64,000 nucleotides of DNA. Source: Luteolibacter sp. Y139. Its GTDB lineage: Bacteria; Verrucomicrobiota; Verrucomicrobiia; Verrucomicrobiales; Akkermansiaceae. The translations under genes and the position numbers were made by a program. The notes under the pieces are model-generated. The model was not told where the DNA came from, made no database searches, and saw only the letters and a list, made by a program, of their open reading frames with translations. Positions 1 to 63,335 of the stretch are shown here, piece after piece; the stretch's first letter is position 1; every line of letters starts with the position of its first letter. The DNA lies in assembly GCF_038066715.1 (NCBI RefSeq), contig NZ_JBBUKT010000002.1, forward strand, positions 124,001 through 188,000, in the 5' to 3' direction.

Positions 1-1220
1 GGAGCTGCCACGGGCACGAAATTGGGTGAAGTTGTGGATTCGTGAAGGCGGAAGAGGCGGGGGTAAGGCGGGTTTTCGCTAGAGTCGAAATCCAAGAGTC
101 CGTGAGCCAGTCCGTCATTCCCTTCGACCAGCGCGGGGTGATACGGGCGGTGGTCAGCAGGGAAGGTTTGGACGATCGAGGTGCCTCCTCCCGGGATGGT
201 GCGATAAATGAAGCCGCCGCCCTCAGGTCCTCCGGAGGGGGAAACGCCGTAGATGCCATGCGAGGTGTAGAGCGGGGTCCACAAATAGACATAGCCCAAA
301 TCCAAGAACCTGAAATCGGCTTCCACGCTGAGAGCTCCATTCAGGCCGATCTTGATGAGCGAATTCTGGGTGTTCCCGATGAAGCCGTCAGGGGTTACTT
401 CCAGCCAGCTGATCTTATCCCGGAAGGGGTGGAACTCGCTGAGAACGGTGATGTCGCCATTGTCTTCCAAGCGGAAGAAATTGCCGTAGGTGAAGCGGGA
501 GAAGAAGCCGGCCTCGATCGGTCCCCCAATGCTGGTAGTGCCGTAGATCCGTCCGTCCGAACCGATGGCCACATGGGTGGGCGACGAAGGGGGGTATTTC
601 GCATCCGGGGGCACTGGGACGCCTGGTGGGTAGCCTGATGGAGCCTCGAAGGCGTGGACGGTTTGGAAGGATCCATCCAAAGACAGCCGGAAAATCGTGC
701 CGCCGCCCAACGGTCCGCCGTCTGACATGACGCCGACAAGGTCACCGGATGGTGTGGCCGCCAGTCGCTGGACGCGGTAGCCCTCCGTCACAGGATTGAC
801 GTCATGAAGGACGCTGAAGACTCCATCGGGAGACCAGCGGAAAATGGTCCCGGCGGCGAAAGCACCTCCATAGGTGGTGCCGCCGTAGAATGCGCCATCA
901 GGACCGGCAATCAGCGGGCAACTGGTGCCTGTGCCGGTTTGGTTGGTGGCACTCGCGTCATCGCTCTCGTCCAAGGCAAACAGGACCTCCGAGTTTTGGC
1001 CCGGAGCCACCCGGTAGATGTAGCCTCCTTGGTTTTCTTCCGACCAGCCGGAGAGCCCGTAGAAGTAACCATCGCCGCGGTTGACGAGGTTGACCATGGG
1101 CTGGATGACCTTATCGAGGGTCTGAATTTCCTCGTAAGTGGTCGCGGATGCGATCGTCGGAGACAAGGAAACGGCTCCGGCGAGAATGATTGAGCGGATG
1201 CAGGTGTTAGGGTGATGCAC
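1..1220 (-). CDS. GloVer-type tandem repeat exported protein, C-terminus cut by window edge
   Basis: The frame is open from the left edge to a GTG codon at 1220-1218 and reads 406 codons without a stop. It has no in-frame ATG near the start. GTG is chosen because it gives a clean signal peptide: a short N-terminus, a hydrophobic SIILAGAVSLSPTIASA stretch, then TTYEE. The mature part has at least six repeats of about 50 residues with the pattern GDG-hydrophobic-YG-x-T/S-x-x-GG-x-x-x-x-G-x-I/F-x-R (for example PDGAFYGGTTYGGAFAAGTIF and SDGRIYGTTSIGGPIEAGFF). This is the pattern of the GloVer tandem repeat family, named for globe/Verrucomicrobia-rich beta-propeller-like surface proteins. The C-terminal anchor, if any, lies beyond the window. 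Function is unknown; it is presumably exported or surface attached. Confidence 0.75.
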   Translation of the reverse strand, partial: MHHPNTCIRSIILAGAVSLSPTIASATTYEEIQTLDKVIQPMVNLVNRGDGYFYGLSGWSEENQGGYIYRVAPGQNSEVLFALDESDDASATNQTGTGTSCPLIAGPDGAFYGGTTYGGAFAAGTIFRWSPDGVFSVLHDVNPVTEGYRVQRLAATPSGDLVGVMSDGGPLGGGTIFRLSLDGSFQTVHAFEAPSGYPPGVPVPPDAKYPPSSPTHVAIGSDGRIYGTTSIGGPIEAGFFSRFTYGNFFRLEDNGDITVLSEFHPFRDKISWLEVTPDGFIGNTQNSLIKIGLNGALSVEADFRFLDLGYVYLWTPLYTSHGIYGVSPSGGPEGGGFIYRTIPGGGTSIVQTFPADHRPYHPALVEGNDGLAHGLLDFDSSENPPYPRLFRLHESTTSPNFVPVAA

Positions 1221-1315
1221 GCATGAAAGCTGTTGATGCGTGGGTGGTGGGTCAATAACTTTCCTGTAACTTATTTGAGTCTTTATTTATTATGAAGCTG
1301 GCGAGGACTCCCGGG

Positions 1316-2188
1316 TTAGATCGGGGTCACGTCCACCGAGACCTTCAGCGTGTGGCTCAGGCCGCCGACGGTGACGCCGCGGAGGGGTGAGACGTCGCGG
1401 TAGTCGCGGCCGGTGGCGACGGTGATGTGGCGTTCGCCGGGGCGGACGTTGTTGGTGGGGTCGAAATCGAGCCAGCCTTGGCCGGGCACGAAGACGGAGA
1501 CCCAGGCGTGCGAGGCGTCGGCACCGACCAGCTTCGGCTTGCCTGGTGGCGGCAGGGTTTCGAGGTAGCCGGAGACGTAGCGCGCGGGCATGCCGATGGA
1601 TCGCAGGGAGGCGATCATGATTTGGGCGAAGTCCTGGCAGACGCCGCGGCGGTTTTTCAGCACTTCGACGACCGGGGTGGCGACGGTGGTGAAGTCGGGG
1701 TCGAACTTGAACTCGTGGAAGATGCGTGCGTTGAAGGCGGAGACGGCTTCAAGCACGCAGCGGCCGGGAGTGAAATCCGGCCGGGCAAACTCGGCGAGTT
1801 CCGGAAGAACGGGGATCAGTGGAGAAGACAAGGCGAAGGCGCGGGCTTCGAGGGCGGCCGGTTCCTTGGATGTCTTGAGTCGGGCAGGCAACTGGTCCCA
1901 TGGGCCGCCGGCTTCGAGTGGAAGCTGACCTGCGGATAGGACCTCCACTTCGCTCTCCGCCGTGATGATGAGTTCGGGGTGAGGGCGCTGGATGGAGAAG
2001 TAGTCGATGTGGTTGCCGAATGAATCACGGCGACTGCGGTGGAATTCCGGCAGGGGATCGATGCCCAGTTTCCACTTCAAGCAGCGCTGTCCCGGCAAGT
2101 CCAATGGCCGCAACCGGGCCTCATTGTGGCACAGGTTTGCGGGCGTGTCGTAGCGGTAAGTGGTCCGGTGGCGGATGCGGTAGCGCAT
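1316..2188 (-). CDS. Transglutaminase-like cysteine protease family protein
   Basis: 290 residues. An N-terminal beta-sandwich domain (about 1-130, beginning YRIRHRTTYRYDTPA) precedes a transglutaminase core. The catalytic triad is visible: Cys184 in RRGVCQDFAQIM, His227 in ADASHAWVSVF and Asp243 in WLDFDPTNN. The length and two-domain layout are normal for the bacterial transglutaminase-like family. It is the last gene of a leftward operon, 33 bp after the ATP-grasp/alpha-E gene. Transglutaminase, circularly permuted ATP-grasp and alpha-E proteins commonly co-occur in bacteria and have been predicted to make or process a peptide or amide-linked product, but the substrate is not established. 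No signal peptide, so probably cytoplasmic. Confidence 0.88.
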   Translation of the reverse strand: MRYRIRHRTTYRYDTPANLCHNEARLRPLDLPGQRCLKWKLGIDPLPEFHRSRRDSFGNHIDYFSIQRPHPELIITAESEVEVLSAGQLPLEAGGPWDQLPARLKTSKEPAALEARAFALSSPLIPVLPELAEFARPDFTPGRCVLEAVSAFNARIFHEFKFDPDFTTVATPVVEVLKNRRGVCQDFAQIMIASLRSIGMPARYVSGYLETLPPPGKPKLVGADASHAWVSVFVPGQGWLDFDPTNNVRPGERHITVATGRDYRDVSPLRGVTVGGLSHTLKVSVDVTPI

Positions 2189-2221
2189 GAACGAGGAGGA
2201 AGAGCGGAAGCGGGCAGGGAC

Positions 2222-4819
2222 TTAGCCGTGCAGGAAGTGCGGGCGGTCGGCGTGGCGGAAATAGGTCAGGGTCAGCGCATTCGAAAGTTGACCGAGGGAG
2301 TGCAGCATGTGGTCGACGAAGGTCTCCAGCTTGCGGCGTCGTCCGCCATTGGTGCTGGTCAGCGTAGCGATGTCGGTGAGGCGCAGGCGGCTGGAGGTTT
2401 CCACGAGGATGCGCTGCTCGCTGGTCAATCGCGCGCCGTGTGCCTGGCGGGGCAGGCGGTCGATGTTTCCTTCAAGGCGCTGGATTTGATAGAGGAGTGA
2501 ACGGGCGTTGTTCGGCTCTAACAAGAGGAGCTCGAGCACCAGTTCGATCCTCGGATAGGTGCGGTAGCGCTTGCGATAGGTGACCAAGCTGTCCGAGGCG
2601 GCGAGCACGGTTTCCATCACGAGAAGCTCTTCCTCCGGTGTGCGGGCTTCCACAAGGAAGTGGCGGATCACGGAAAGCTGGAACTGGGCGCGCTCGATCC
2701 GGCGGCCGGAGTCGAGCAGACGCCAGCCGGCGTCCCGGGTCATACTCTCGAGATTGAGACCCAGCAGCGCGGTGAGGTCGATGATCAGACGGTTCAGCGG
2801 GTCAGTGAAGTCATCGAGATCTGAAACGACATGGCCCGATCCTTCGATCCATTCGCGGATGATGGCTTCGATCACGCGCCACGAGTCGGGAGACCACAGG
2901 TCGCGCACGGCGTAGGCGGCATTCCGGAAGGAGCGAAGGTTGTAGGCCAAGGAGCCGATCCGCCCCGGCTGCGTGAGCAGGGACATGACCTCTTCCTCGT
3001 CGCTTACGACGGCGTGATCCTCCTCTTCATGAATTGGTGCTGCATTGGTCACACCTAACAGGCCTCCCATGAGGATTTCGCGATGGCGGCTGAGCTGGCT
3101 TTCATCGTCGCCGATGGATTCGACGAAGCTCATCACCGCGCGGCGCAGCAGGCGGGCGGTGCCTTCCGCGCGCTCGGCGTAGCGGCCGGTCCAGAAGAGG
3201 TTTTCACCGGAGCGGCTGGGTACGTTGCGCGAATCCGCGTCGCGGGCTGCGGCGTCGGCGGTGTCGTTCCAGAGGCTGACGAAGGGTTCGGAGTCGGTAC
3301 CCTGGACCCAGGTGTCCTTCGAGGTGCTGCCGAGCTGACTGGAAACCACGAGTGCTTCCGGAGATGCCGCGACGCGGGTCAGGCCGCCGGGCATGACGAT
3401 GTAGCGGCCATCGGCGGTGGCGGTGGCGAAGCCGCGGAGCACGCCGCGGCGAGCCTCGATCTGTGTGCCGTGGAGGCAAGGCTGGGTGGAGAAGCTGACT
3501 TGCTGTTGGCCGACGTAGCATTCCGGTGCGGCGAGGATTTTCGCGCGCAGGGTTTCCCGCTCCGCTTTGCTCAGCGTTCCGCCGAAGACGGAGCCGAAGG
3601 TCGGAGCACGGTGGATCGACTTCACAATGAGTGTGTCGAGGTTCGCGAGGACGTGATCGCAGGCTTTCTTCTCGCCGCACCACCAGGTGGCGGCTGCGGG
3701 GAGAATGAGTTCCTCGGTTCGCAGATGGCGGGAGATACCGGGAAGGAATGCCATGAGGCCGGGGTTCTCCAAGACACCGCTGCCGGGGTGGTTCACCACG
3801 GCGACATTACCGGCGCGCATTGACTCTAGCAAACCGGGCACGCCGAGCTGGGAATCTTCTTTCAGCTCCAGTGGATCGCTGAACCAGGCATCGACGCGGC
3901 GGATGATGACGTCGACGGGCTCCAAGCCACCGAGGGAGCGCAGCCAGACGCGGGCGTCGCGGACCGTGAGGTCATCGCCTTGGACCAGCGAGTAGCCGAG
4001 GTAGGAGGCGAGGAAGGCGTGCTCGAAATAGGTTTCGTTCTGAGGGCCGGGAGTGAGAATCACCACGCGTGGTTCGCGGGCACCGCTGGCGGTGGGGAAT
4101 GACTCCAGCGTTTCGCGCAGCGTGCGGAAGAAGCCGGCGATGCGGCGGACGCCGCTGCGATGGAAGAGGCGCGGCATGGCGCGGGTCATGACGCCGCGGT
4201 TTTCCACGATGTATCCGCTGCCGGAGGGAGCCTGGGTGCGGTCATTGACGATCCACATGCGGCCGTCCGGACCGCGGGCGAGGTCCGCCGCGTAGAGGAT
4301 GAGCTGGCGCTTCGAGGCGAGCTTCATGCCATGGCACGGACGAAGGTAGCCGCGATGGGCGTGGATGAGCTCAGGCGGAAGCCAGCCTTCGGCGATCAAC
4401 CGCTGCTCGCCGTGGAGGTCGGTGAGGACGTGGTCGAGCAGCTCGGCCCGCTGGATGAGGCCGGCTTCGATGGTCTTCCAGTCCTGCTCGGAAACGACCC
4501 ATGGAATGGCATCGATTTGCCAAGCGCGGTGCTCGCCATCGGGAGCGCCGTGGACGCTGTAGGTGACGCCGTTTTCGCGCAGGAGGCGGAGGATCTCGCC
4601 ATTGGTGGCGATGGCCTGCTCGGGAGTGAGCCCGCCGAGCCATGAGGCGACGTGCGACCAAGACGGGTTCACGCTGCCATCGGCGGCGAGCATTTCGTCC
4701 CACGCGCCGCGGGCGTAGTCCGGTGGCAAGATGTTTCTCGGGGTGACCGCAGCCGGCATGACCGAGGATATGCCCGCATCCGCTTGATTTGGCAATGGTG
4801 GCGACTCCGGCGGCGTCAT
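2222..4819 (-). CDS. Circularly permuted type 2 ATP-grasp protein fused to an alpha-E domain
   Basis: 865 residues. The first 500 or so residues match the circularly permuted ATP-grasp family (old DUF404/DUF407): GAWDEMLAADG near the N-terminus, then RPCHGMKLAS, NDRTQAPSGSGYIVENR and VVNHPGSGVLENPGLMAFLP. From about residue 525 (SGENLFWTGRYAERAEGTARLL) to the end is the helical alpha-E domain (DUF403). These two modules are often separate adjacent genes; here they are one polypeptide. ATP-grasp enzymes form amide or ester bonds through acyl-phosphates, so a peptide ligase role is likely, but the substrate is unknown. The start lies 13 bp downstream of the miaA stop, so both are probably on one transcript, with the transglutaminase gene following. 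Confidence 0.87.
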   Translation of the reverse strand: MTPPESPPLPNQADAGISSVMPAAVTPRNILPPDYARGAWDEMLAADGSVNPSWSHVASWLGGLTPEQAIATNGEILRLLRENGVTYSVHGAPDGEHRAWQIDAIPWVVSEQDWKTIEAGLIQRAELLDHVLTDLHGEQRLIAEGWLPPELIHAHRGYLRPCHGMKLASKRQLILYAADLARGPDGRMWIVNDRTQAPSGSGYIVENRGVMTRAMPRLFHRSGVRRIAGFFRTLRETLESFPTASGAREPRVVILTPGPQNETYFEHAFLASYLGYSLVQGDDLTVRDARVWLRSLGGLEPVDVIIRRVDAWFSDPLELKEDSQLGVPGLLESMRAGNVAVVNHPGSGVLENPGLMAFLPGISRHLRTEELILPAAATWWCGEKKACDHVLANLDTLIVKSIHRAPTFGSVFGGTLSKAERETLRAKILAAPECYVGQQQVSFSTQPCLHGTQIEARRGVLRGFATATADGRYIVMPGGLTRVAASPEALVVSSQLGSTSKDTWVQGTDSEPFVSLWNDTADAAARDADSRNVPSRSGENLFWTGRYAERAEGTARLLRRAVMSFVESIGDDESQLSRHREILMGGLLGVTNAAPIHEEEDHAVVSDEEEVMSLLTQPGRIGSLAYNLRSFRNAAYAVRDLWSPDSWRVIEAIIREWIEGSGHVVSDLDDFTDPLNRLIIDLTALLGLNLESMTRDAGWRLLDSGRRIERAQFQLSVIRHFLVEARTPEEELLVMETVLAASDSLVTYRKRYRTYPRIELVLELLLLEPNNARSLLYQIQRLEGNIDRLPRQAHGARLTSEQRILVETSSRLRLTDIATLTSTNGGRRRKLETFVDHMLHSLGQLSNALTLTYFRHADRPHFLHG

Positions 4820-4832
4820 CGCGCCAGCCGTA

Positions 4833-5702
4833 TCAGATGCCGTGCCGATCTTCCTTCAACCAGTGTTCGCGGCGGAACCAGGTGTCCTGGCGCTTGGCAT
4901 ACTGGCGGGTGGCGGCGTTGATGAGGGACTCGCATTCGGGGCGGTCGATCTCACCGGCGAGGTGGCGGCGGATTTCGCCGTAGCCGATGGCTTTTTCGAG
5001 GCCGGGTGCGGCGTTCCGGAGGGTGGCGACTTCCTGGATCGCGCCGCCATCCAGCATTTGACGGGTACGGCGGGCGATGCGGTCGTGGAGATCGGGGCGC
5101 GGGCGGGAAACGAGGATGCCACGGAGTTTTTCGGCCCTAGCGGATGAGGCGGCTTCCCAATCGTCGCGGAGGGTGGAGCAGGGGACTCCGGCGAGGAGGC
5201 AGACTTCCAGCGCGCGGGAGACGTAGCGGCGATTTTTCAGGTCGGTCCGGGCGGCTTCGACAGGGTCGAGGGCTTGGAGGCTGGTGACCAGGTCTTCGAG
5301 TGGGGCGGCGTCGAGTTCGGCGCGGAGGGTCGGTTCGCCGGGTGGAAGCGGGGATGGGCCGTGGGACAGGAATTTCAGGTATAGTCCCGAGCCGCCGGTG
5401 ATGATGGGGGTTTTTCCGCGAGCGAGGAGTTCCTCGATGACTGGCACGACCAGCCGCAGGTAGGTCATGGCGTCGACCGGCTGGTCGGGGGAAAGGATGC
5501 TGTAGAGGTGATGCGGACGCTTTTCGCGGTCTTCTGGAGGCGGTGCGGCGGTCAAGACCTCGAGGCCGCGGTAGAGCTGGAAGGCATCCGCATTGACAAT
5601 CTCGCCGTCGAGTTCGGCGGCGATTTCCAGGGCACGGGCGCTTTTGCCTGAGGCGGTGGGGCCGCAGACGAAGAAGAGGTGCTCGGGGGCGGGAAGGGTC
5701 AT
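4833..5702 (-). CDS. miaA: tRNA dimethylallyltransferase MiaA
   Basis: 289 residues. The enzyme transfers a dimethylallyl group to N6 of A37 in tRNAs that read UNN codons. A P-loop GPTASGKS lies at residues 14-21, followed by the family motifs NADAFQLYRGLEVLTA, PHHLYSILSP, GGSGLYLKFL and, near the C-terminus, AIGYGEIRRHL and RQYAKRQDTWFRR. The ATG at 5702 is preferred over an upstream TTG at 5747, because that TTG lies in the T-tract of the terminator of the preceding gene and the ATG places the P-loop at the usual distance from the N-terminus. It is first gene of a leftward operon with the ATP-grasp/alpha-E and transglutaminase genes. Confidence 0.95.
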   Translation of the reverse strand: MTLPAPEHLFFVCGPTASGKSARALEIAAELDGEIVNADAFQLYRGLEVLTAAPPPEDREKRPHHLYSILSPDQPVDAMTYLRLVVPVIEELLARGKTPIITGGSGLYLKFLSHGPSPLPPGEPTLRAELDAAPLEDLVTSLQALDPVEAARTDLKNRRYVSRALEVCLLAGVPCSTLRDDWEAASSARAEKLRGILVSRPRPDLHDRIARRTRQMLDGGAIQEVATLRNAAPGLEKAIGYGEIRRHLAGEIDRPECESLINAATRQYAKRQDTWFRREHWLKEDRHGI

Positions 5703-5745
5703 GCGGATGGGTCTAATAGGACCAAGAAGACCTCTATGCTGAGAC

Positions 5746-5779
5746 AAAAACGCCCCGCCCGAAGGTTCCGGGCGGGGCG
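5746..5779 (-). terminator. Rho-independent terminator of the RRM gene
   Basis: Perfect 11-bp arms CGCCCCGCCCG (5751-5761) and CGGGCGGGGCG (5769-5779) enclose a 7-nt loop. Read on the minus strand, the stem is followed by TTTTT (5750-5746). It sits 25 bp past the stop of the RRM gene and separates it from miaA. Confidence 0.9.
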
Positions 5780-5804
5780 GGGAATGATTTGCGGAGGCTT
5801 CCGA

Positions 5805-6704
5805 TCAGGCGGTCGGCTCTTCCGAAGTGGCCGAGGCCGCGGACTCAGCCGCGGCGACGGGCTCGGACTGGGCGACAGGCTGGGACGGGGCGGCGGGAGT
5901 CGAGTCAGCCGGGGCGGCGGTCTCTTCCTTCAGCGCGTCCTCGTGCTCCTTGGTCTTGGCACCGCTGACGACGAGCTGGCGGCCCATGAAGAACTGATCA
6001 TGCAGTACTTCCACGGAGCGCTTGGCTTCGTCGACATTGAGCATGTCGACAAATCCGTAGCCCTTCGACTTGTGAGTGCGGCGGTTGTAGACGATCTCGA
6101 CGTTGCGGACGGTGCCCACGCCCTTGAAGAGGTCCTTGAGGTCTTCTTCGGTGCAGTCGTAGGACAGATTGCCGAGGTAGATGCGAGCACTGGCGACATC
6201 GCCCCGTTCCGGGCTGCGGCGCTGGCGTTCTTCGCGGGGGGCGCGTTCTTCCCGTGGCGGGCGGTCCTCGCGAGCAGGACGGTCTTCGCGGGAACGTTGC
6301 TCGGACGGCTGCTTGGCGATGCGGACGTTCGACTTCGGCTCGCGTTGCTCACGTGGCGGGCCATCCTCGAAGCGGATGGGCTCGCGGCGTTCGCGCGGCG
6401 GGCGGACTGGCTCCTTGTAGAGGCCGAAGATCTTTTTGATCTTCTGCCAGAGGGTCAGCGGGGCGGGCTTGTATTCCTTGCGAGGTCCGCGATCAATACG
6501 ATCACCGCGGTCGCCGCGTTCTCCACCGCGCTCGTTGCGATTGCGGTCTCCGCCACCATGGGAGCGTTTCTGGCCATGGTGCGAGTTGCTATTGTTGGGG
6601 TCTTGGTCCTGCCGGTTGCGATTCCGGCCTTTGCCTCCGCGGGAACGACGGCGGCGACGTTCTCCGTCGCCGGTGCCGCGGGTATCAGGTGTGGCGTTCG
6701 ACAT
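5805..6704 (-). CDS. RRM-type RNA-binding protein with basic low-complexity N-terminus
   Basis: 299 residues from the ATG at 6704; longer readings upstream are not credible because they lose the protein-like composition. Residues 1-170 are rich in Arg, Gly, Asn, Glu and Pro (RRRRRSRGGKGRNRNR, then many PREER/REDRP units), resembling an RGG/RE-rich disordered arm. Residues 174-252 form one RNA recognition motif, with RNP2 IYLGNL (175-180) and RNP1 KGYGFVDM (214-221). The last 45 residues are Ala/Pro/Glu rich. Single-RRM proteins in bacteria (cyanobacterial Rbp type) bind RNA and are often cold or stress regulated; the long basic arm is unusual. It has its own strong terminator and about 560 bp upstream without another gene. 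Confidence 0.9.
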   Translation of the reverse strand: MSNATPDTRGTGDGERRRRRSRGGKGRNRNRQDQDPNNSNSHHGQKRSHGGGDRNRNERGGERGDRGDRIDRGPRKEYKPAPLTLWQKIKKIFGLYKEPVRPPRERREPIRFEDGPPREQREPKSNVRIAKQPSEQRSREDRPAREDRPPREERAPREERQRRSPERGDVASARIYLGNLSYDCTEEDLKDLFKGVGTVRNVEIVYNRRTHKSKGYGFVDMLNVDEAKRSVEVLHDQFFMGRQLVVSGAKTKEHEDALKEETAAPADSTPAAPSQPVAQSEPVAAAESAASATSEEPTA

Positions 6705-9427: not shown

Positions 9428-9811
9428 ATGAGCGAGAACCTTGGAACCTTTCACCGCTTGGGAGAGCCGGGAGGTCCCGGTTGTCCGGTTGGAGTTCTTC
9501 CGATAGCCCTTCGCGATGCTGAAGGTCGGCAGGCCTCCGGTAGTTTGTTAGACGCTGGGCCGGAAGCCACGGAGATTGAATTGCTCCGCACGATCGCATC
9601 ACGCCTAGGCATCAAGTGGGGCAGCGACAGCCTCGGATGGTGGGCTGTGGTGAAGATCGAGTTTCCGACGTGGGCGGTCTGGCGTCAGGATGACCATGGC
9701 AATTCGTTCCTGGTCGAAGCCAATCTAACAAAGACGCAGGCCGAGGAACTTCAGGCCGAACTGGAGGCGAGGGGACACAAGCAGACCTACTGGGCGGCCG
9801 ATGCTGCGTAG
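9428..9811 (+). CDS. Small SPOR-like hypothetical protein
   Basis: 127 residues from the ATG at 9428. The first half is not recognised. The last 45 residues (FPTWAVWRQDDHGNSFLVEA, then an acidic helix, then ARGHKQTYW) resemble the short SPOR-like domains of actinobacterial proteins, where RQDDNGN and ARGHKQxYW recur. No signal peptide or membrane segment. It starts just after the pfkA terminator, so it needs its own promoter, and ends 1 bp from the convergent xseA stop. It carries two copies of the TGTTAGA word (9546 and 9724), in two different orientations. The family call is from memory and tentative. Confidence 0.6.
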   Translation: MSENLGTFHRLGEPGGPGCPVGVLPIALRDAEGRQASGSLLDAGPEATEIELLRTIASRLGIKWGSDSLGWWAVVKIEFPTWAVWRQDDHGNSFLVEANLTKTQAEELQAELEARGHKQTYWAADAA

Positions 9812-23761: not shown

Positions 23762-23971
23762 GGGAAGGCAACACTTTACCTACCCAGTACCGTGGACACC
23801 TGCAAGTGACCTTTCCGTTCCCTTGAGAATCTATCTATTTCCCGCTGCTGCTGCTCGATAGCACTTTCCCGGTGGACCTGTCCTCGCTGCCCTTATTCCG
23901 TATGAAGGATATGCCCACAAAGGCGGTACGTAGCTCCGCCTGATTGCTTTCTGTTAGCCTTGGCGAGTATT

Positions 23972-42602: not shown

Positions 42603-42641
42603 GAACGAGAGGTGGTGGAGCGTGAACGTGCCGTCCACGCC

Positions 42642-42670
42642 GTGTCGACGGAACGTCGACACTCCTTAAG
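42642..42670 (+). repeat. CGTCGAC-GGAA hairpin with CTCCTTAA tail, copy 3
   Basis: GTGTCGACG-GAA-CGTCGACAC is a perfect 9-bp stem, followed by TCCTTAAG. It lies inside an operon, between the SGNH hydrolase stop and the MBOAT start, so it may attenuate or stabilise the transcript. Related copies are at 28396 and 13722. Confidence 0.85.
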
Positions 42671-42679
42671 GGCATGAGA

Positions 42680-45523: not shown

Positions 45524-46108
45524 ATGTTAGCAAACCGAGGTGCCGCTCCAAGCGCCCTTGGTTACGGAAGCGGCTTAGCGGTCCGTTGCTACGGTTTGAT
45601 GGCTCTTTGCCTTGGTGGCTTCCAGCCCTTGGGTGCGGCACCTCAGATGACTGTTACGACAGGTATCGTAGATGCGGTGAAGAAGGCGTTGAATGAGCCC
45701 AAGCAAGTCTCGCCGCGAAAAGACGGTGAAGAGTGTCACTCAGCAAAGCCGAGCGTTGAGAAATTCTTGGCCGAGAGTTCCGGAGACATCGCCAAAGAAC
45801 TGGAAGAGGCGAAGAAGGTTCTGGCGGAGCATGAGATCCGGCTGGCCTATACCATCGAAAAGGAAGGTGAGGCTCCCCAGCTTGATGAGGGTGCGCGTCC
45901 TCAGTTGGTGGTGAAGCTGTACAAGGGCTCAGAGAAGTACACGATGTATTTCCGGCTTACTGCCGGTTCCGATGTGCGGGTCTTCGCGCACCCGCCGATC
46001 CTGCCTTACCGGGAGCTGATCTATCACATCAGGGGCGACAAGTACGACAAGCAGGCCGTGGGGGCGTGTCTGGGCGAGGCGGTGGCCTATATCCTCGAAC
46101 AGGGGTAG
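45524..46108 (+). CDS. Hypothetical protein, possibly exported
   Basis: 194 residues from the ATG at 45524; ATGs at 45599 and 45650 are alternatives. A hydrophobic stretch (GLMALCLGGFQPLGAAP) may be part of a signal sequence. The rest has a charged helix (IAKELEEAKKVLAEHEIRLAY) and a beta-rich end (KYTMYFRLTAGSDVRVFAHPP). Not recognised. It ends base-to-base against the convergent nucleoside hydrolase, with no gap. Confidence 0.55.
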   Translation: MLANRGAAPSALGYGSGLAVRCYGLMALCLGGFQPLGAAPQMTVTTGIVDAVKKALNEPKQVSPRKDGEECHSAKPSVEKFLAESSGDIAKELEEAKKVLAEHEIRLAYTIEKEGEAPQLDEGARPQLVVKLYKGSEKYTMYFRLTAGSDVRVFAHPPILPYRELIYHIRGDKYDKQAVGACLGEAVAYILEQG

Positions 46109-50951: not shown

Positions 50952-51965
50952 CTACTGCGCGTAGCTCAGCTCGACTGCTGTTAGCTTCAGGTCATCTTGC
51001 ACGCTGCGTTTTGCAGGGATGCCGAGCTTCCCTAGAGCTGCATGATAAGACTTCACCGCCTCGACGGGCGAGAGATCGCCATCGGTGATCCGGCGGAGGT
51101 GGCGGACGAACTCGACGGGATGCTCGGCGTCCTTGATCTTGCGACCGAAGAGGGCGACGCGGGCGCCGTGCCTCTGGCCTTCGGCGATGAGCTTGAAGGC
51201 ATCGTGCGTAGTGCCCGAGCTCCCTCCGAGGATGCCGACGATGAGGTTCTCGGGATCGTAGGCAGCGAGGTCTTCGATCGCGCCGGGGGAGAGGAAGGGG
51301 ATTTTGAGGAAGACCGGGCCGTGGCCGATGGGAACGCCGGCGAGCGTGCGGCAGATCTGGTCATTGAGGAAATGCGGGAGGTCTGCGGGAGCGACGCGAC
51401 TTTCGAGATTGGGGGCGAAGACTTCAAGGAAGTAGCGGAAGCCGAGACGCTGGGCTTCGAGGCGGAAGGCCTTGAAGGCGGTGATGCTTTCGCGGTCGGC
51501 TTCGAGGTCGTTGTTAAAGGTGATCGAGTAGAGGCCGAGGCTGATGTCGGGCTGGCCTTTGGCAGGCGAGGTCATGGCGAGCACTTCGGCAAGGTCGCAG
51601 GAGGCGAAGGGGCGTGAGGCTGACTCGCGGTAGCGCATGCCGCGGCCGCACCAGATGTCGGTGGTGTCATTGGCGCGGATCGCGGGGGTGACTTCGGTGC
51701 CATCGAAAACGCGCTCGCGGTGGGCGAGGAGGCTCATTTGCGAGACGGATCCTAACAGAATGTCGATGACGCCATCGGCGACGATTTCGCGGATTGATTG
51801 ACGGAACTCCGGCATGCTGTGCCATGCCTTCTCCTGCGGTGGCCATGGAGTGCCCGGAGCGGGGATGCCCCAGGCCATGTCGGCGTCCTTGGCATCGGCG
51901 AGGATGAAGGCATGCGGGTCGCCGCGGCGGATGGCGGCGAGCTTTTCTAACAGGCGGGCTTTCAT
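50952..51965 (-). CDS. Class I aldolase-like protein paired with a PfkB kinase
   Basis: 337 residues from the ATG at 51965, 1 bp after the kinase stop. Beta-strand/helix periodicity suggests a TIM barrel. VFLKIPFL carries a candidate Schiff-base lysine and LIVGILGGSSGTTHDAFKLI looks like the phosphate-binding loop of DeoC/LacD-type aldolases. The end is YHAALGKLGIPAKRSVQDD. By analogy with 5-dehydro-2-deoxygluconokinase plus aldolase (IolC/IolJ), the pair may phosphorylate and split a sugar acid or inositol product. This family call is inference. Confidence 0.6.
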   Translation of the reverse strand: MKARLLEKLAAIRRGDPHAFILADAKDADMAWGIPAPGTPWPPQEKAWHSMPEFRQSIREIVADGVIDILLGSVSQMSLLAHRERVFDGTEVTPAIRANDTTDIWCGRGMRYRESASRPFASCDLAEVLAMTSPAKGQPDISLGLYSITFNNDLEADRESITAFKAFRLEAQRLGFRYFLEVFAPNLESRVAPADLPHFLNDQICRTLAGVPIGHGPVFLKIPFLSPGAIEDLAAYDPENLIVGILGGSSGTTHDAFKLIAEGQRHGARVALFGRKIKDAEHPVEFVRHLRRITDGDLSPVEAVKSYHAALGKLGIPAKRSVQDDLKLTAVELSYAQ

Positions 51966-55498: not shown

Positions 55499-58400
55499 AT
55501 GAGCCGACTTCTGATCTTCCTTGGCTGCACCCTTGCCGCTTCCGCCGCGCCGCGCTTCGAGTTCAAGGAGGGCGACCGGGTGGCGTTCCTCGGGGATGGC
55601 TTCATCGAGCGGGAGCAATACGAGGGCTGGATCGAGATCGCGGCGACGACGGACTTTCCGGATCGGAATGTGACGTTTCGCAATCTCGGATGGAGCGGTG
55701 ACTTGCCGAATGGAGTGTCGCGTTGCGGGCTGAGCTTGCTCCAGGCGGGGATGGAGCCGCCGGAGGAAGGCTGGCGGCAGTTGCAGAACCAGCTCAAAAC
55801 TTATCAGCCGAACGTGCTGGTGACGGGCTATGGCATGGCGGCTTCGCTGCCGGGCGGGCCGACGCCGGAGCAGTTCCGGAAGGATTTCGAGCGCTTGCTG
55901 GATGAGGTGAAGGACATGCGGGTACTGGTGCTGGGTGCGCCGCCGCGTTTCGCCCGTGCCGGCGATACGGATCAGGAGGTGAAGGCCCACGATGCCTCGC
56001 TGGAGGCGATCGATGGCGTGCTGCGGGAGGTGGCGGGGAAGCGGGGGCTGACGTTTGTTTCGCTCCAGTCACTGGATAAGCAGAAAGGGCTCTCGGACGA
56101 TGGCATTCACCTGAACTCGGCCGGCTATCGGGCGACGGCGCGGTTGATCGAAAAGGAACTTGGCTGGGGTGCGGGACGATGGGACCAAGGCAAGCCGGCC
56201 GACGCGCTGCGCCACGCGATCCTTCGCAAGAACGAGTGGTTCTTCCATCGCTCACGTCCGGCGAACATGGCCTACATCTTCGGCTTCCGGAAGGCGGAGC
56301 AGGGAAGGAACGCGGGTGAGATCGTGGCCTTTGACAAGCTGGTGGCCGATGAAGATGCGCGCATTGCTGAAATGCGGAAGCTTTCCAAGGTGGTGCCCGC
56401 GCCTGAGGAGCGGACGATTTCCACGGTGGCGGCCCACACGCCGCAGCCGTCTCCTCAATTCACGGTGGCCGATGGCTACGAGGTCACGCTGTGGGCGGAG
56501 AATCCGCTGCTCTTCAAGCCAACGCAGATGAACTTCGACACGAAGGGGCGGCTGTGGGTGACGAGCTCGGAAACCTATCCGCAGATCGAGGTGGGCCAGA
56601 CGGCGGATGACAAGATCCTGGTGCTGGAAGACCGCGATGGCGATGGCAAGGCGGAGACGTCGACACCGTTTGCGACCGGCTTGCTGATGCCTACTGGCGT
56701 CCTACCGGGCGATGGCGGCTGCTATGTGGCGCAGAGCACGGACTTGCTGCACTTCCGCGATACCGACGGCGATGGCAAGGCGGACGAGAAGCGCCGCGTG
56801 CTGAGTGGCTTCGGCACGGAGGACACGCACCATAACCTGCACACGCTGCGCCGTGGTCCGGATGGGAAGATCTGGATGAACCAGAGCATCTACACGCGCA
56901 GCGACACCGAGACTCCGCAGGGCGTGATGCGCCTGAAGAGTGGTGGCGTGATGCGTTTCGACCCGCGCAACAATCACATCGAGCCGGTCTTCTACGGCTG
57001 GTGCAATCCATGGGGACATCAGTTCGACCGCTACGGTCAATCATTCGTGACCGATGGTGCCGGTGGTGGAGGCATCAATTGGGCGGTGCCGGGCGCGATG
57101 TATTTCACCTACGCGAATGCACCGAAGACGCTCGATAGCATCAGCCCCGGCAGCTATCCGAAATTCTGCGGGCTGGAGATCATCGAGTCGCCGCATTTCC
57201 CGGATGACTGGCAGGGCTCGATGATCACGTGCGACTTCCGCGCGCATCGCGTGGTGCGCTTCGCTGTGTCCGAACAGGGCTCGGGTTACGCAGCGCAGGA
57301 GGTGGGCGACATCCTGCGGACGGATAGCGTGAACTTCCGGCCGATCGACGTGAAGATCGGGCCGGATGGCGCGCTGTATATTGCGGACTGGTCGAACCCG
57401 ATCATCAATCACGGCGAAGTGGACTTCCGCGACCCGCGGCGCGACCGCGAGCACGGGCGCATCTGGAAGGTGACGAGGAAAGGTGCCGAGCTGAAGCCGG
57501 GGCCGGACCTCACGAAGGCGAACGATGCGACCTTGCTTGCGTCGCTGACGATGAATCATCGCCACCAGCGCGAGGCTGCCCTGACGGAGTTCGTTTCGCG
57601 CCCGGCTTCGCCGGCCCGGAACGCCGTCGTCGAGAAGTGGCTGGGTTCTGCCAAGGATGGTCGTGACCACCTGGCGGCCCTGTGGCTGGGTGAGGCCTTG
57701 GGTTGGAAGAACCCGAAGTTGTATGCCGAGGTTCTGGACGATCCGGATGGCAAGGTTCGTGCGGCCGGGGTGCGGGCGCTCGGTGACCGGCTGTCGGTGA
57801 TGAGTCCGGATGAGGCATTTTCGCGGCTTGTGAAAGCTGCGGGTGATGAGGCCCCGCGGGTGCGTCTGGAAGCGGTGCGGGTTCTTGCCAAGCTGGACCG
57901 GCCCGAGGCGACCGATGCCGCCTTGCAAGCGCTCAAGCTGCCGCGCGATAGGTTCGTCGACTATGCCTTGTGGCTTACGGTGCGAGATCGTGGTTCCGCA
58001 TGGCTGACGGCTTTGTTAGATGGGAAGCTGCCGCTGGATGGACGCGAGGCCTCGCTGGAGTTCGCGCTGGCGAATCTGCCGGGCGGGCAGGGGATGGCTG
58101 GCATTCGCAAGCTGATGCCGAAGCCGCTTCCTCGCGATGGTTCGGGCCCTTGGGTTGGGCTCGCGGTGAAGACGGCGGATCCGGTTTTGTTAGAGGCGGT
58201 TTATGCGCAGGCGCTGTGGGCGGGCTTTGACGCCAACGTGACCGCGAAGGTTCTCTCCGATCTGGAAACGGCGGTGGCGGGACGGGGCGTGAAGCTGCCG
58301 GACAAGACCGCGGAGCTGCGGACGATGTTTGTGGCCGAGAATCCCAAGGTGGTGGCGGCGGCGCTGCAATTGGCGGGTGCGCTGCGCGTGACGGCATTGC

Positions 58401-59692
58401 AGGGCGATCTGGCGGCTGCGGCGGCGAAGGCAGATGCTCCCGATGCGGTGCGGATGGCGGCGCTCCATGGGCTTTCGTATTTCGCGGATTCGGCGGCGCG
58501 CGAGGCGCTGGTGGCGGTCGCGGGTTCCGGGTCGTCGTCACTGCTGAAGCGCTGTGCGGCGCTGGCGCTGGTGAAGAATCACCGGGCGGATGCGCTTGCG
58601 GCCATTCGTGCGGTGCTGCCGGAAATGACGGATGCGACCGAGGCCCGGTCGTTCTGGCAGCAAGCGCTTTCACTCAGCGGACTCTCGGCCGATCTGGCGA
58701 AGTCATTCCATGAGCAGCCGTTGGATCCAAAGACCGCTTCGCTGAACTTGCCAGCGGTGCCGGACATCGATGAGCACGCTGCGTTGTTAGAGGCGCTGCG
58801 GAAGCAAGCGGGTGCCGCGGCTGGCGGACCGGCGAAGGACTCGATCCAGAGGCTCGTTGCATTGGCGGGAGAGAAGGGCGATGCTTCCCGGGGCGAGCTG
58901 ATCTATCGGCGTCCGGCGCTGGTGTGTGCCACGTGCCATGCTGTCGGCGGTGCGGGCGGGAAGGTGGGTCCGGACCTGACGTCGATCGGGGCGAGTGCGC
59001 CGTTGGATTATCTGGTCGAGTCGGTGCTGCTGCCCGGCGCGAAGGTGAAGGAGGGCTATCACGCGGTGATCTTCGAGACCCGTGATGGGCGGACGATCAT
59101 GGGGCGCTTGCTCAAGAGCGGCGGTGGGCAGACGATCATTGCTGATGCGGCTGGGCAGGAGATCACCTTGGCGGATGAATCGATCGTGAAGCGGACGGAC
59201 TCCGGTAGCCTGATGCCTGCGAACCTGATTGCTTCGATTTCGGAGCAGGAGCAGGCGGATCTTTTCAAGTTCCTGTCGCAGCTCGGCAGGCCTGGTGACT
59301 TCGATGCGACGAAGAGCCGGGCACCGCGGGTGTGGGCGTTGCTGCCGGTGAAGGGAGCGCTTTCGGCCGGTGCGGAGAAGGGAGATTCCTCGCTGCCGTG
59401 GATGGCGGTGAATGGGACGGTGAACGGGCGACTGGTGGCCAGCGAGGCGGCGGCGTTTCTGGGGGATGCGAAGGAGGCCTTGGCGGCCTCGCGGATCGAG
59501 CTGGCGGCGGCAGCGGAGGTTTCCATTACGCTTCCCGCGAATGCCTCGGCGGCTTGGGCCGATGGTGCTCCGGTGGCGGGTGGAAAGGCTCAGCTCGGAG
59601 CTGGAAAGCATGTCGTCGTCGTGCGCTATAAGCCGGACGGAAATGATTTCCGCTTTGAGGCTTCGGCGGGGACCTTCTTGCCGGTGTGGTGA
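55499..59692 (+). CDS. PVC-type dehydrogenase with SGNH, HEAT and CxxCH haem domains
   Basis: 1397 residues from the ATG at 55499. A signal peptide (LLIFLGCTLAASAAP) is followed by an SGNH-like domain (RVAFLGDGFIEREQYEG to GLSDDGIHLNSAGY). There GDG replaces GDS, so the nucleophile serine is missing. Then comes the PVC membrane-bound dehydrogenase propeller (GYEVTLWAENPLLFKPTQM, DRDGDGKAETSTPFATGL, PGSYPKFCGLEI), HEAT-like helices and one haem site VCATCH near residue 1142 with LMPANLI as likely axial Met. A short beta domain ends it. The family is abundant in Planctomycetota and Verrucomicrobiota and is taken to oxidise sugars or alcohols outside the cytoplasm. Three TGTTAGA words lie in this gene. 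Confidence 0.9.
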   Translation: MSRLLIFLGCTLAASAAPRFEFKEGDRVAFLGDGFIEREQYEGWIEIAATTDFPDRNVTFRNLGWSGDLPNGVSRCGLSLLQAGMEPPEEGWRQLQNQLKTYQPNVLVTGYGMAASLPGGPTPEQFRKDFERLLDEVKDMRVLVLGAPPRFARAGDTDQEVKAHDASLEAIDGVLREVAGKRGLTFVSLQSLDKQKGLSDDGIHLNSAGYRATARLIEKELGWGAGRWDQGKPADALRHAILRKNEWFFHRSRPANMAYIFGFRKAEQGRNAGEIVAFDKLVADEDARIAEMRKLSKVVPAPEERTISTVAAHTPQPSPQFTVADGYEVTLWAENPLLFKPTQMNFDTKGRLWVTSSETYPQIEVGQTADDKILVLEDRDGDGKAETSTPFATGLLMPTGVLPGDGGCYVAQSTDLLHFRDTDGDGKADEKRRVLSGFGTEDTHHNLHTLRRGPDGKIWMNQSIYTRSDTETPQGVMRLKSGGVMRFDPRNNHIEPVFYGWCNPWGHQFDRYGQSFVTDGAGGGGINWAVPGAMYFTYANAPKTLDSISPGSYPKFCGLEIIESPHFPDDWQGSMITCDFRAHRVVRFAVSEQGSGYAAQEVGDILRTDSVNFRPIDVKIGPDGALYIADWSNPIINHGEVDFRDPRRDREHGRIWKVTRKGAELKPGPDLTKANDATLLASLTMNHRHQREAALTEFVSRPASPARNAVVEKWLGSAKDGRDHLAALWLGEALGWKNPKLYAEVLDDPDGKVRAAGVRALGDRLSVMSPDEAFSRLVKAAGDEAPRVRLEAVRVLAKLDRPEATDAALQALKLPRDRFVDYALWLTVRDRGSAWLTALLDGKLPLDGREASLEFALANLPGGQGMAGIRKLMPKPLPRDGSGPWVGLAVKTADPVLLEAVYAQALWAGFDANVTAKVLSDLETAVAGRGVKLPDKTAELRTMFVAENPKVVAAALQLAGALRVTALQGDLAAAAAKADAPDAVRMAALHGLSYFADSAAREALVAVAGSGSSSLLKRCAALALVKNHRADALAAIRAVLPEMTDATEARSFWQQALSLSGLSADLAKSFHEQPLDPKTASLNLPAVPDIDEHAALLEALRKQAGAAAGGPAKDSIQRLVALAGEKGDASRGELIYRRPALVCATCHAVGGAGGKVGPDLTSIGASAPLDYLVESVLLPGAKVKEGYHAVIFETRDGRTIMGRLLKSGGGQTIIADAAGQEITLADESIVKRTDSGSLMPANLIASISEQEQADLFKFLSQLGRPGDFDATKSRAPRVWALLPVKGALSAGAEKGDSSLPWMAVNGTVNGRLVASEAAAFLGDAKEALAASRIELAAAAEVSITLPANASAAWADGAPVAGGKAQLGAGKHVVVVRYKPDGNDFRFEASAGTFLPVW

Positions 59693-59828: not shown

Positions 59829-59850
59829 GGGGAACCGGGAGGCACGGTTG

Positions 59851-61323
59851 TTAGATAGTGAAGGCCGAGACGAAATTTGGCACCGGCATGGTTTCGAGGG
59901 CGGCGCGGTCGGTGAAGATGTTCATCAATCTCTCCGCCCGTTCTTCTCCGTAGTGGGTGGCAAAGGCGGAATGGGCCTTGGCTTGGAGGAGTGGGATTCC
60001 TTCGCTCCGTCGGCGGCGGTGGCCGACGGGGTATTCGACTTCGATCTTCGCTGTCGAGGTGCCGTCATTGAAGAAGACCTGAATGGCGTTGGCGATGGAG
60101 CGCTTGTCGGGATCGAGGTAGTCGCGGGAGTAGGCATTGTCTTCGGTGACGGTCATTTTTTCACGCAGGGCATCAATGCGTGGGTCGGTGGCGATCTTGT
60201 CCTCGTAGTGGTCGGCAGTGAGTTCGCCGAAGATCAGGCCGATGGCGGTCATGTATTGGAGGCAATGGTCGCGGTCGGCGGGATTGTGGAGCGGGCCGGT
60301 TTTGTCGATGATGCGGATCGCGGATTCGTGGGTGGTGAGTTCGATGCGTTCGATGGAGTCGAGGCGATGCTTGATGAGCGGATGAAGCTGCATGGCGCAC
60401 TCGACGGCGGTCTGGGCGTGGAACTCGGCGGGGAAGGAGATCTTGAAGAGTACTTGTTCCATCACGTAGCTGCCGAGGGGTCGGGCGAGTGTCACGGGAT
60501 TGCCTTTGAAGGAGACGTCTTGGAATCCCCAGGTCTTGGCGCTGAGCACGGAGGGGTAGCCCATTTCGCCGGTCATGGAAATGACTGCGAGGCGGACGGC
60601 GCGGCTGGTGGCGTCGCCGGCGGCCCAGGATTTGCGTGAGCCGGTGTTCGGAGCGTGGCGGTAGGTTCGCAGGGCGGAGCCATCGAGCCAGGCGTGGGAG
60701 ATGGCGTTGATGACTTGCTCGCGGGTGCCGCCAAGCATGGCGGCGGTGACGGCGGTGGAGGCGATGCGCACTAACAGAACGTGGTCGAGGCCGACGCGGT
60801 TGAAGGAATTGTCGAGCGCGAGCACGCCTTGGATCTCGTGGGCCTTGATCATGGCGACGAGGACATCGCGCATGGTCAGGGGCTTGGCTTTCAGGGTGGA
60901 GGAGAAGGCGGCAACCGGAGTTTCGGCGGTGGCATTGCGCGAGAGCCAGTCGGCGGTGGCGAGGATGGCGCCGAGATTGTCGGAGGGGTGGCCCCATTCG
61001 GCTGCGAGCCAAGTGTCATTGAAATCGAGCCAACGGACGAGCGTGCCGATATTGAAGGCGGCTTGGACGGGATCGAGTTCGAAGGAGGTGCCGGGGACGC
61101 GGGCGCCATTGGTGATGGAAGTGCCGGGGACGACTGGGCCGAGGAGCTTGGTGCAGGCGGGGTAAGCCAAGGCCATGATCCCACAGGCGAGGGTGTCGGC
61201 TAGGCACCAGCGGGCGGTGTCGAAGGCTTCGTCGCTGGTGATGACTGCGTCCAGTGCGTAGTCGGCGAGGGTGGTGAGAAGCGGGTCCGGCGCGGGGCGG
61301 ATGTTGGAAATGGCGGAGGACAT
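59851..61323 (-). CDS. prpD: 2-methylcitrate dehydratase
   Basis: 490 residues, MmgE/PrpD family. It dehydrates 2-methylcitrate in propionate breakdown. Landmarks are [56 protein letters not shown] and the C-terminal [16 protein letters not shown]. Its ATG lies one base after the prpC stop (TAACATG), so it is tightly coupled. The TAA stop is inside a TGTTAGA word (59849-59855). The three-stem element follows. Confidence 0.94.
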
Positions 61324-61324
61324 G

Positions 61325-62485
61325 TTAGCGCTGGTCGATGGGAGGAATGGGGCGAGGCTCGGGGCCGGTGTAGTTGGCGCCGGGGCGGATGAGTTTGCCG
61401 TCGATGCGTTGCTCGATGACGTGGGCTGCCCAGCCGGTGACTCGGGAGATCACGAAGAGCGGGGTGAACATTGCGGTGGGCACTCCGAGCTCGTGGTATG
61501 CCACGGCGCTGAACCAATCGAGATTGGGGAACATCCGCTTTTCTTCCCACATCAGGGTTTCGATGCGCTCGGCGATGGCGAAGAGGTTTTCGTTGTCGTT
61601 CTGGGCGCAGAGGTCGCGGGCGATTTCCTTGATGATGGCGTTGCGGGGATCGCAGACGGTGTAGACCGGGTGGCCAAAGCCGATGACGATCTCCTTGTTG
61701 GAAACGCGGCGGTGAATGTCTTCGGCGGCTTCGCCGGGACTCTGGTAGCGCTGCTGGATCTCGTAGGCGACCTCGTTGGCGCCGCCGTGCTTGGGGCCCC
61801 GGAGAGCGCCGATGGCTCCGGTGATGGCCGAATGGAAATCGGTGCCGGTGCCTGCGATCACCCGCGCGGTGAAGGTGGAGGCATTGAACTCGTGCTCGGC
61901 GTAGAGGATGAGCGAGCGGTCGAGGGCGCGGATGTGAGACGTCGTTGGCGGTCGTTGATGAAGGAGGTGCAGGAAGTGGGCGGCTATGGTTGTGTCGTCC
62001 GTTTCAACTTCTATGCGCTGGCCGCTGGTTGCGAAGTGGTACCAGTAGAGCAGCATGGATGGAAAGCAGGCGAGCAGCCGGTCGGCGAGCGCGCGAGCAG
62101 CCGGTGCGGAGGCTGCGTTTGCGCCGGATGAGGGGAGTTGCTCGGTTTCGAGATTGCCGAGCATGGAGCAGCCGGTGCGGAGGACATCCATGGGGTGGGA
62201 GTCCGGCGGGATCTGCTCTAGGACCGAGCGCAGGCCGGGAGGCAGACCGCGGAGAGATCTGAGCTTTGCGGTGTAGGCTGTTAGTTCGGTGGCAGTCGGG
62301 AGGCGCTCGTGGATCAGCAGGTGGGCGATCTCCTCGAAGGTTGTTTGGTTGGCCAAGGCACCGATTTCGTAGCCGCGGTAGTGGAGGTCATTGCCGGTGT
62401 GGCCTACGGTGCAGATGGCGGTATTGCCCGCGACGACGCCGGAGAGGGCGACGGATTTTTTCGGGGGATGGAGTGGATCGGACAT
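61325..62485 (-). CDS. prpC: 2-methylcitrate synthase
   Basis: 386 residues, citrate synthase fold. It condenses propionyl-CoA with oxaloacetate. Motifs are [62 protein letters not shown] and the catalytic [14 protein letters not shown]. Assignment as PrpC over GltA rests on the size and on the operon prpB-prpC-prpD, with 7 bp to prpB. Confidence 0.94.
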
Positions 62486-62492
62486 GGGTTTG

Positions 62493-63335
62493 TCAGGTGG
62501 GAGGTTGGTAGCCCAGGATGTCGTAGAGTTCGGCGCGGGTTTGCATGCGGTCGATCACGGCTTGCTGGGTTCCGTCGCGGCGGATGGCGGAGAATACTTC
62601 GAGCGACGCGGCTGCAGCAGCCCGAGATGAGGAGAGGGGATAGAGGACCATGGCGACGCCGGCGTCCTTGAGTTCCCCTAGGGTGAAATAGGGTGTCTGG
62701 CCGAACTCTGTTAGGTTGATCAGGACGGGTGCGTCGACAGCGCTTGTGAAGGCGCGGATGTCATCGAGTGAGCGGAGGGCTTCGGCGAAGATCATGTCGG
62801 CACCGGCGGCGAGGTAGGCTTTGGCGCGTTCGATGGCGGCGAGGAGGCCTTCGACGGCGGCGGCGTCGGTTCGTGCGATCACGACGAAGCTGTCGTGAGG
62901 TTTCCCCGAAACGGCGGCTTCGATGCGGCTGAGCATCTCTTCCGTGGCGACCAGGTGTTTTCCGGGGAGATGGCCGCAGATTTTAGCGGGCACTTGGTCC
63001 TCGATGTGGACGGCTGCTGCACCGGCGGCGGCTATTTCGCGGACGGTCATGGCGGGGTCATCCCAGCCGGTGTCGATGTCGACCAGCAGGGGAAGAGCGA
63101 CACGGCTGGTGATGCGGCGGACGTCGATGAGGACGTCTTCCAACGTTGTCAGCCCGGTGTCGGGGAGGCCGTAGGAGTGATTCGCGACGCCGGCTCCGGA
63201 AAGGTAGAGGGCGCTGAAACCCGCGCGCTGTGCCAGCAGGGCGGCGTAGGCATTCAGGGTGCCGGCAATTTGGAGGGGTGACTCGGCCCGCAGGGCGTCA
63301 CGAAAGCTCGGGCGGGAAACGGGGGCGGGAGTCAC
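62493..63335 (-). CDS. prpB: Methylisocitrate lyase
   Basis: 280 residues from a GTG at 63335. A longer ATG frame would start inside the neighbouring repeat gene and adds no homologous sequence. The enzyme splits 2-methylisocitrate to pyruvate and succinate. Motifs are [26 protein letters not shown]-like [12 protein letters not shown] and the active-site KICGH (118-122; usually KRCGH or KKCGH). First gene of the prp operon. There is no PrpR-type regulator next to it in the window. Confidence 0.93.

Follow-up and report, generated by a model that had tools for sequence, protein, structure and literature searches.

The window analyzed here is a 64,000-nucleotide stretch of Luteolibacter sp. Y139 (positions 124,001 to 188,000 of contig NZ_JBBUKT010000002.1, i.e., C2:124001-188000 of the genome designated G000, 7.1 Mb in 31 contigs), and its subject is a short word, YTGTTAGR (Y, C or T; R, A or G), that recurs within and between the genes of this genome. 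The NuoD protein encoded in the window shares 85 to 87% identity with its counterparts in several Akkermansiaceae genomes; of the best 80 matches of a homology scan, nearly all came from Verrucomicrobia. Genes were predicted with a simple hexamer-based open reading frame caller made for this analysis, not with a standard annotator. The core TGTTAG occurs 28 times in the window, as a first-pass annotation of the bare sequence had counted, and all 18 TGTTAGA starts given there were recovered at exactly the listed positions; its estimates of about 32 GTTAG and about 64 percent GC were slightly off, 33 copies and 62.5% being measured. The full YTGTTAGR is matched by 20 of the 28 cores, and the readings proposed earlier, Leu-Leu-Asp/Glu, Leu-Thr, Ser-Asn, and one across a stop codon, were all found. 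In the following list, positions are those of the window, conservation refers to the relatives G008, G011, and G007 as named, and lines without such an entry rest on the sequence scan.

2517 to 2524, minus strand: YTGTTAGR as TTGTTAGA, Leu-Leu-Glu, gene 2222-4729(-); conserved in G008
3054 to 3061, minus strand: YTGTTAGR as CTGTTAGG, Leu-Leu-Gly; not conserved in G008
9545 to 9552, plus strand: YTGTTAGR as TTGTTAGA, Leu-Leu-Asp; conserved in G008 and G011
9724 to 9731, minus strand: YTGTTAGR as TTGTTAGA, Leu-Thr; not conserved in G008
15190 to 15197, plus strand: YTGTTAGR as CTGTTAGA, antisense, Leu-Thr, gene 13754-19114(-); not conserved in G008
17122 to 17129, plus strand: YTGTTAGR as TTGTTAGA, antisense, Leu-Thr; not conserved in G008
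18112 to 18119, plus strand: YTGTTAGR as CTGTTAGA, antisense, Leu-Thr; not conserved in G008
19060 to 19067, plus strand: YTGTTAGR as CTGTTAGA, antisense, Leu-Thr; not conserved in G008
27128 to 27135, minus strand: YTGTTAGR as CTGTTAGA, antisense, Leu-Thr, gene 26937-27725(+); not conserved in G008 or G011
31973 to 31980, plus strand: YTGTTAGR as TTGTTAGA, Leu-Leu-Asp, gene 31517-33979(+)
36277 to 36284, plus strand: YTGTTAGR as TTGTTAGA, antisense, Ser-Asn, gene 34677-38600(-); conserved in G008
43410 to 43417, minus strand: YTGTTAGR as TTGTTAGA, Leu-Leu-Glu, gene 42680-43612(-); conserved in G008 but in neither G011 nor G007
46875 to 46882, minus strand: YTGTTAGR as CTGTTAGA, Leu-Leu-Glu, gene 46109-47614(-)
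51751 to 51758, minus strand: YTGTTAGR as CTGTTAGG, Leu-Leu-Gly, gene 50952-51965(-)
51946 to 51953, minus strand: YTGTTAGR as CTGTTAGA, Leu-Leu-Glu, gene 50952-51965(-)
58013 to 58020, plus strand: YTGTTAGR as TTGTTAGA, Leu-Leu-Asp, gene 55499-59692(+)
58187 to 58194, plus strand: YTGTTAGR as TTGTTAGA, Leu-Leu-Glu, gene 55499-59692(+)
58784 to 58791, plus strand: YTGTTAGR as TTGTTAGA, Leu-Leu-Glu, gene 55499-59692(+)
59848 to 59855, plus strand: YTGTTAGR as TTGTTAGA, spanning the stop codon of gene 59851-61323(-)
62708 to 62715, plus strand: YTGTTAGR as CTGTTAGG, antisense, Leu-Thr, gene 62493-63335(-)
38840 to 38845, minus strand: TGTTAG core with A after and G before, intergenic; among the 18 TGTTAGA of the first-pass annotation
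1205 to 1210, plus strand: TGTTAG core, flanks incomplete (G before, G after)
23952 to 23957, plus strand: TGTTAG core, flanks incomplete, intergenic
45525 to 45530, plus strand: TGTTAG core, flanks incomplete, intergenic
50979 to 50984, plus strand: TGTTAG core, flanks incomplete
60771 to 60776, minus strand: TGTTAG core, flanks incomplete
61323 to 61328, plus strand: TGTTAG core, flanks incomplete, at a gene edge
62279 to 62284, plus strand: TGTTAG core, flanks incomplete

The 18 copies of TGTTAGA in the window compare with 2.9 expected from composition, in line with the two or three anticipated earlier, and with 1.4, 0.5, and 0.8 expected under Markov models of order 1, 2, and 3, respectively. 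The expectation reaches 6.8 under order 4 and 17.8 under order 5; such models contain the word itself and thereby hide it, and lower orders were used as nulls instead, together with codon shuffles in which codons were permuted among the same amino acid within genes. By either kind of null, both proposed in the first-pass annotation and applied here to samples of the genome, TGTTAG came out as the leading 6-mer. Specifically, it was the most over-represented 6-mer in a 464-kb sample (159 copies versus 17.3 expected under order 2 and 27.4 under order 3); in an 864-kb sample, 298 copies stood against 31.5 expected, and all 18 one-base neighbors remained at or below 1.93 times expectation. Far from lying near the codon-shuffled expectation, its count in G000 genes was 242 versus 40, and by this null it led all 6-mers in G000, G008, G049, G156, and G215, five of the 14 genomes sampled. 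Across the whole genome, TGTTAGA was counted 746 + 756 times versus 236 + 235 for the word read backwards, and YTGTTAGR 1,921 times, about once per 3.7 kb, versus 694 times; reading the word backwards serves as a crude control and gives no expectation value.

The shape of the word is sharply delimited. The C or T in front that had been noted from the window was confirmed as a strong signal at position −1, and another strong one was added at position +7, which is A or G and not A alone. Among flanks of up to 30 bases, only position −8 also rose above the threshold set, in keeping with codon periodicity, and the near-emptiness of the flanks beyond −1 and +7 indicates that no longer repeat is involved. 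In sampled genes of G000, YTGTTAGR was found 182 times versus 7.2 after codon shuffling (25-fold), whereas all other flanks of TGTTAG together gave 60 versus 34; in genes of G008, the figures for YTGTTAGR were 66 versus 2.5. YTGTTAGR has a defined, degenerate shape of eight bases and seems to be a genome-wide recognition word.

Its effect on codon usage is considerable. Among genes scoring at least 30 within the 464-kb sample, 73 of 129 in-frame TTA codons lie in the context NTG-TTA-G, which bears out the earlier impression that the word holds most of the rare TTA codons; TTA makes up 10.6% of leucine codons in this context, while the seven other contexts have 0 to 1.9% each. An ordinary origin of the word, from codon usage, codon-pair or mutation bias, or a dispersed repeat, was also weighed. 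In its favor, certain other over-represented words are codon effects bound to one frame: TTGTAG and TAGTAG were set aside on this ground, nearly all copies lying in one antisense frame and reflecting Tyr codons (305 of 313 for TTGTAG). For TGTTAG, however, counts lie above those of codon-shuffled genes in several frames, sense as well as antisense, with 142 versus 9.9 copies in the sense TTA frame, 9 versus 5.5 in the sense Val-Ser/Arg frame, 42 versus 2.4 in the antisense Leu-Thr frame, and 49 versus 22 in the antisense Asn frame; between genes, 41 copies stood against 7.5 expected. For TGTTAGA, the four frames gave, in the same order, 76 versus 3.6, 7 versus 0.1, 25 versus 0.7, and 21 versus 3.0. 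Sense-strand copies of TGTTAG outnumber antisense copies, 151 to 91. The density of YTGTTAGR is 3.3 per 10 kb in intergenic DNA versus 2.3 in genes, and the word is far above expectation in every one of five gene classes defined by GC content at third codon positions (GC3). TGATAG was dropped as a true variant in G000, since it was enriched in one frame and occurred 15 times between genes versus 14 expected.

Turnover of the word was followed by comparing G000 with G008, for which 121 kb could be aligned at 83% identity. Of the G000 sites, 22 of 40 are intact in G008, and 22 of 36 in the reverse direction. Where rare leucine codons (TTA, CTA) still encode leucine in G008, the codon is unchanged in 16 of 26 cases within the word versus 3 of 53 outside (p = 1.5e-7). 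This matched-codon test, with twice the aligned length, replaced a smaller first comparison in which 7 of 19 sites were conserved versus 0.33 for words of the same composition, i.e., no excess. Sites that differ carry transitions and transversions in place, mostly synonymous and often as two synonymous changes in adjacent codons, with some amino acid changes, and most alignments shown are free of indels at the counterparts of sites in relatives. A specific mutational bias would not explain so many kinds of substitution. An excess of counterparts with two mismatches, considered as a sign of multi-base events, was dropped as evidence because TTA is two steps away from the common leucine codons. 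Given this turnover, the enrichment in several frames, and the near-empty flanks, we regard a by-product of codon or mutation bias or of a dispersed repeat as highly improbable. Enrichment in sense, antisense, and intergenic positions, turnover by varied substitutions, and conservation above that of matched rare codons also uphold the earlier view of a DNA word and no amino acid signal. The word is real, works at the DNA level, and is maintained; a DNA-level force favors and keeps it.

The word is patchy inside its order and rare beyond it. Among the 16 genomes sampled in the genus, seven have more YTGTTAGR than backwards control (G000, G003, G006, G007, G008, G011, and G015), and word-poor members of the genus lay well below the control, e.g., G002 with 69 versus 531. 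At the level of the order, TGTTAG was above control in 31 of 240 genomes, 27 of them in the same family and 4 in family f2, and in a scan of the phylum, G366 was the single genome among 210 from beyond the order with TGTTAGA above control. The 80 best-matching homologous loci (1.18 Mb; YTGTTAGR 54 versus 141 for the control) were mostly short and distant and added only scatter. The densest genome, G156, holds 3,307 YTGTTAGR in 3.0 Mb. G156 and G049 tolerate a wider range of flanks, and single mismatches are enriched there chiefly at positions 1 and 3, in G049 also at position 4, while G2, A5, and G6 are hardly ever replaceable with gain. Flank dialects exist: G030 has 3,554 TGTTAG, of which 137 are TGTTAGA, and 191 YTGTTAGR, and in a 54-kb sample 41 of 48 TGTTAG are followed by C or T, giving a TGTTAG-Y dialect versus TGTTAG-R in G000, with a modest excess of TGTTAG over codon shuffling (23 versus 7.3). 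In small samples of the word-poor genomes G002, G129, G173, and G057, no other word rose above about threefold by codon shuffle, and no substitute for the word is apparent. As separate observations, GATAGA, GCTAGA, and AGCTGG are also enriched by codon shuffle in G030 (L221-L225, L148-L151), possibly a second dialect or another word, and GAGGGTG is found 42 times versus 5.6 under order 2 in G215 (L144-L147).

Placement along the chromosome bears on whether a chromosome-maintenance protein, such as a recombinational repair enzyme or a nucleoid protein, recognizes the word, its copies being weakly selected for aiding repair or organization. The discrete eight-base shape, the conservation at the level of sites, the presence of copies both between and within genes, and the enrichment at all GC3 levels would suit such a site. 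Chi and KOPS-like (FtsK-orienting) words, likewise short, over-represented, and read by proteins, are strand polarized and oriented with replication, whereas YTGTTAGR is balanced relative to the G-rich strand (106:106 in G000 and 48:50 in G008, polarity being approximated by the GC skew of 20-kb stretches plus the 64-kb window). This balance disfavors a polar segregation signal, one of the functions suggested earlier. For 156 sites across 420 kb of contiguous G000 sequence, the gaps fit an exponential distribution (Kolmogorov-Smirnov p = 0.86), the variance/mean ratio of counts per 10 kb is 1.09, and neither regional clustering nor a strong trend of site position along genes was seen. The lack of clustering speaks against a maintenance site, and an essential one would hardly be expected to disappear from close relatives within the genus; we consider such a site possible but less likely than not.

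A further candidate is a word marked by a methyltransferase, as with HIP1 of cyanobacteria, where methylation-linked mismatch repair or protection would let copies accumulate. According to excerpts on HIP1, the two share very high abundance, also inside genes, patchiness among relatives, and variants in some genomes (PMC4390886). They differ in that HIP1 is palindromic, rich in GC, and tied to methyltransferases, whereas YTGTTAGR is AT-rich and nonpalindromic and has no tied enzyme in PF01555 and PF07669, the two families searched. All 18 genomes searched contain N6/N4 methyltransferases of PF01555; of the 44 matches listed, 30 were retrieved, and 27 proteins were compared. One conserved enzyme of about 280 residues (C6:357390-358112 of G000, L236) recurs at 62 to 92% identity in 12 of the 18 genomes searched, word-rich (G000, G008, G015, G003, G007, G188, and G193) and word-poor (G002, G013, G016, G017, and G129) alike, and the word-rich G015, G003, G188, and G193 have no other PF01555 member. 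PF07669 (Eco57I), which includes BREX PglX and type IIG enzymes, had no match in G000. Thus, no methyltransferase of these two families follows the word in the panel, other families, among them Type I, Dam-like, and C5 enzymes, not having been searched, and the earlier suggestion of a methylation word is unsupported to this extent. Excerpts of a lake methylome study list no TGTTAG motif for Verrucomicrobia bins (PMC6329791). On balance, a HIP1-like origin appears unlikely.

The best single explanation, which we advance tentatively, may be sequence-preferring DNA uptake resembling that linked to the DNA uptake sequences (DUS) of Neisseriaceae and the uptake signal sequences (USS) of Pasteurellaceae. 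Being unpolarized and randomly spread, having dialects, being lost in some relatives, and being commoner in one orientation in genes, YTGTTAGR appears to behave most like uptake sequences among the known kinds of words; membership in DUS or USS is not claimed, uptake being their defining feature. As far as excerpted accounts go, DUS and USS likewise comprise thousands of copies of a short nonpalindromic word in coding and intergenic DNA, with lineage dialects, absence from some relatives, and no general strand bias (PMC3630211, PMC2346458), and they show sense/antisense inequality in genes without general orientation bias (PMC2346458). DUS counts are given there as about 1,900 to 5,900 per genome, a range that includes the YTGTTAGR count of G156 (PMC3630211). 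Under the uptake explanation, copies of the word would arise in place by point substitutions and would then be favored and kept by a DNA-level process, which we infer to be biased DNA uptake in natural transformation. Fragments bearing the word would be preferred by a putative pilus-linked receptor, enter through ComEC, and recombine into the chromosome, and copies would spread by molecular drive, the mode of spread proposed for uptake sequences in Neisseriaceae and Pasteurellaceae. Of the competence machinery, DprA was found in G000, and ComEC in 50 of 50 genomes tested. A more specific version, in which the word is a candidate self-DNA uptake mark in Verrucomicrobiales with flank dialects and a receptor unrelated in sequence to ComP, seems possible, if to be held with greater reserve.

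Several observations weigh against uptake. ComEC is equally present in word-rich and word-poor genomes and does not separate high from low counts. ComP_DUS (PF16732), which represents the Neisseria type, exceeded the cut-off in 0 of 25 genomes, with one weak match in G127, pilins and type IV pilus genes not having been searched; a receptor of another type is conceivable. YTGTTAGR comprises eight degenerate bases, whereas known uptake sequences have 9 to 12; as a further difference, it occurs in another phylum. Inverted pairs in terminators are typical of DUS, though not part of the definition; no such terminators were seen in G000, and the 420 kb held no excess of close inverted pairs, with 6 neighboring pairs within 100 bases versus about 10 expected, of which a single pair was inverted. 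Taken together, one-mismatch forms lack enrichment in G000 and G008 (0.96 and 0.91), whereas the values of 1.37 in G156 and 1.58 in G049 count in favor of uptake; a graded enrichment of such forms is described in the excerpted account of known uptake sequences (PMC1939737). DNA absent from the syntenic place in G008 is only slightly poorer in sites (10 in 58 kb versus 35 in 128 kb aligned), numbers too small to separate. Finally, none of 10 proteins scanned from three of the longest word-free gaps belonged to a mobile element; the longest gaps contain housekeeping genes instead, including an operon for NADH dehydrogenase and genes for enolase, a GreA/GreB-domain protein, a penicillin-binding protein, and FeoB. 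This fits rare-codon avoidance in housekeeping genes, and no depletion in mobile DNA is indicated. Four small contigs of G000 (507 to 1,261 bases), possible plasmids, are too short to inform. The probability of a site for a repair, nucleoid, or other protein comes close to that of uptake, and, of the functions listed in the first-pass annotation, either uptake or protein binding may apply.

Some features outside this subject were also noted. Dispersed repeats at 38943-39016 and 42617-42671 of the window have similar stretches at several other places in G008 (84 to 88% and 92 to 95% identity, respectively). A 31-base stretch with repeated GTCGAC (C2:323549-323579; L125:3549-3579) recurs in G008, with 17 rows among the matches listed at 81 to 100% identity, and the window has part of it near 42617-42671. 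At L125:3403-3494, an intergenic element about 85 bases long has many G008 copies at 73 to 84% identity. In the 464-kb sample, the palindromes GGCGCC (388 versus 1,024), CAGCTG (180 versus 479), and CTCGAG (204 versus 464) are strongly under-represented, a pattern as under restriction avoidance.

No description of this word in Verrucomicrobia was found in the open-licence full-text literature. A word kept at a density of one copy every 1 to 4 kb must have a reader that a number of environmental and host-associated bacteria share. Whatever its function, it accounts for the majority of TTA codons seen in these genes, a warning not to take them for regulatory ones. A repair or nucleoid site would imply a recognition protein not yet described. 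Self-preferring transformation is known from two families, according to excerpts of one account (PMC7811141). If YTGTTAGR is an uptake mark, self-preferring transformation would have arisen outside Neisseriaceae and Pasteurellaceae, and comparing genomes with and without the word inside a single genus would allow the receptor to be paired with it.

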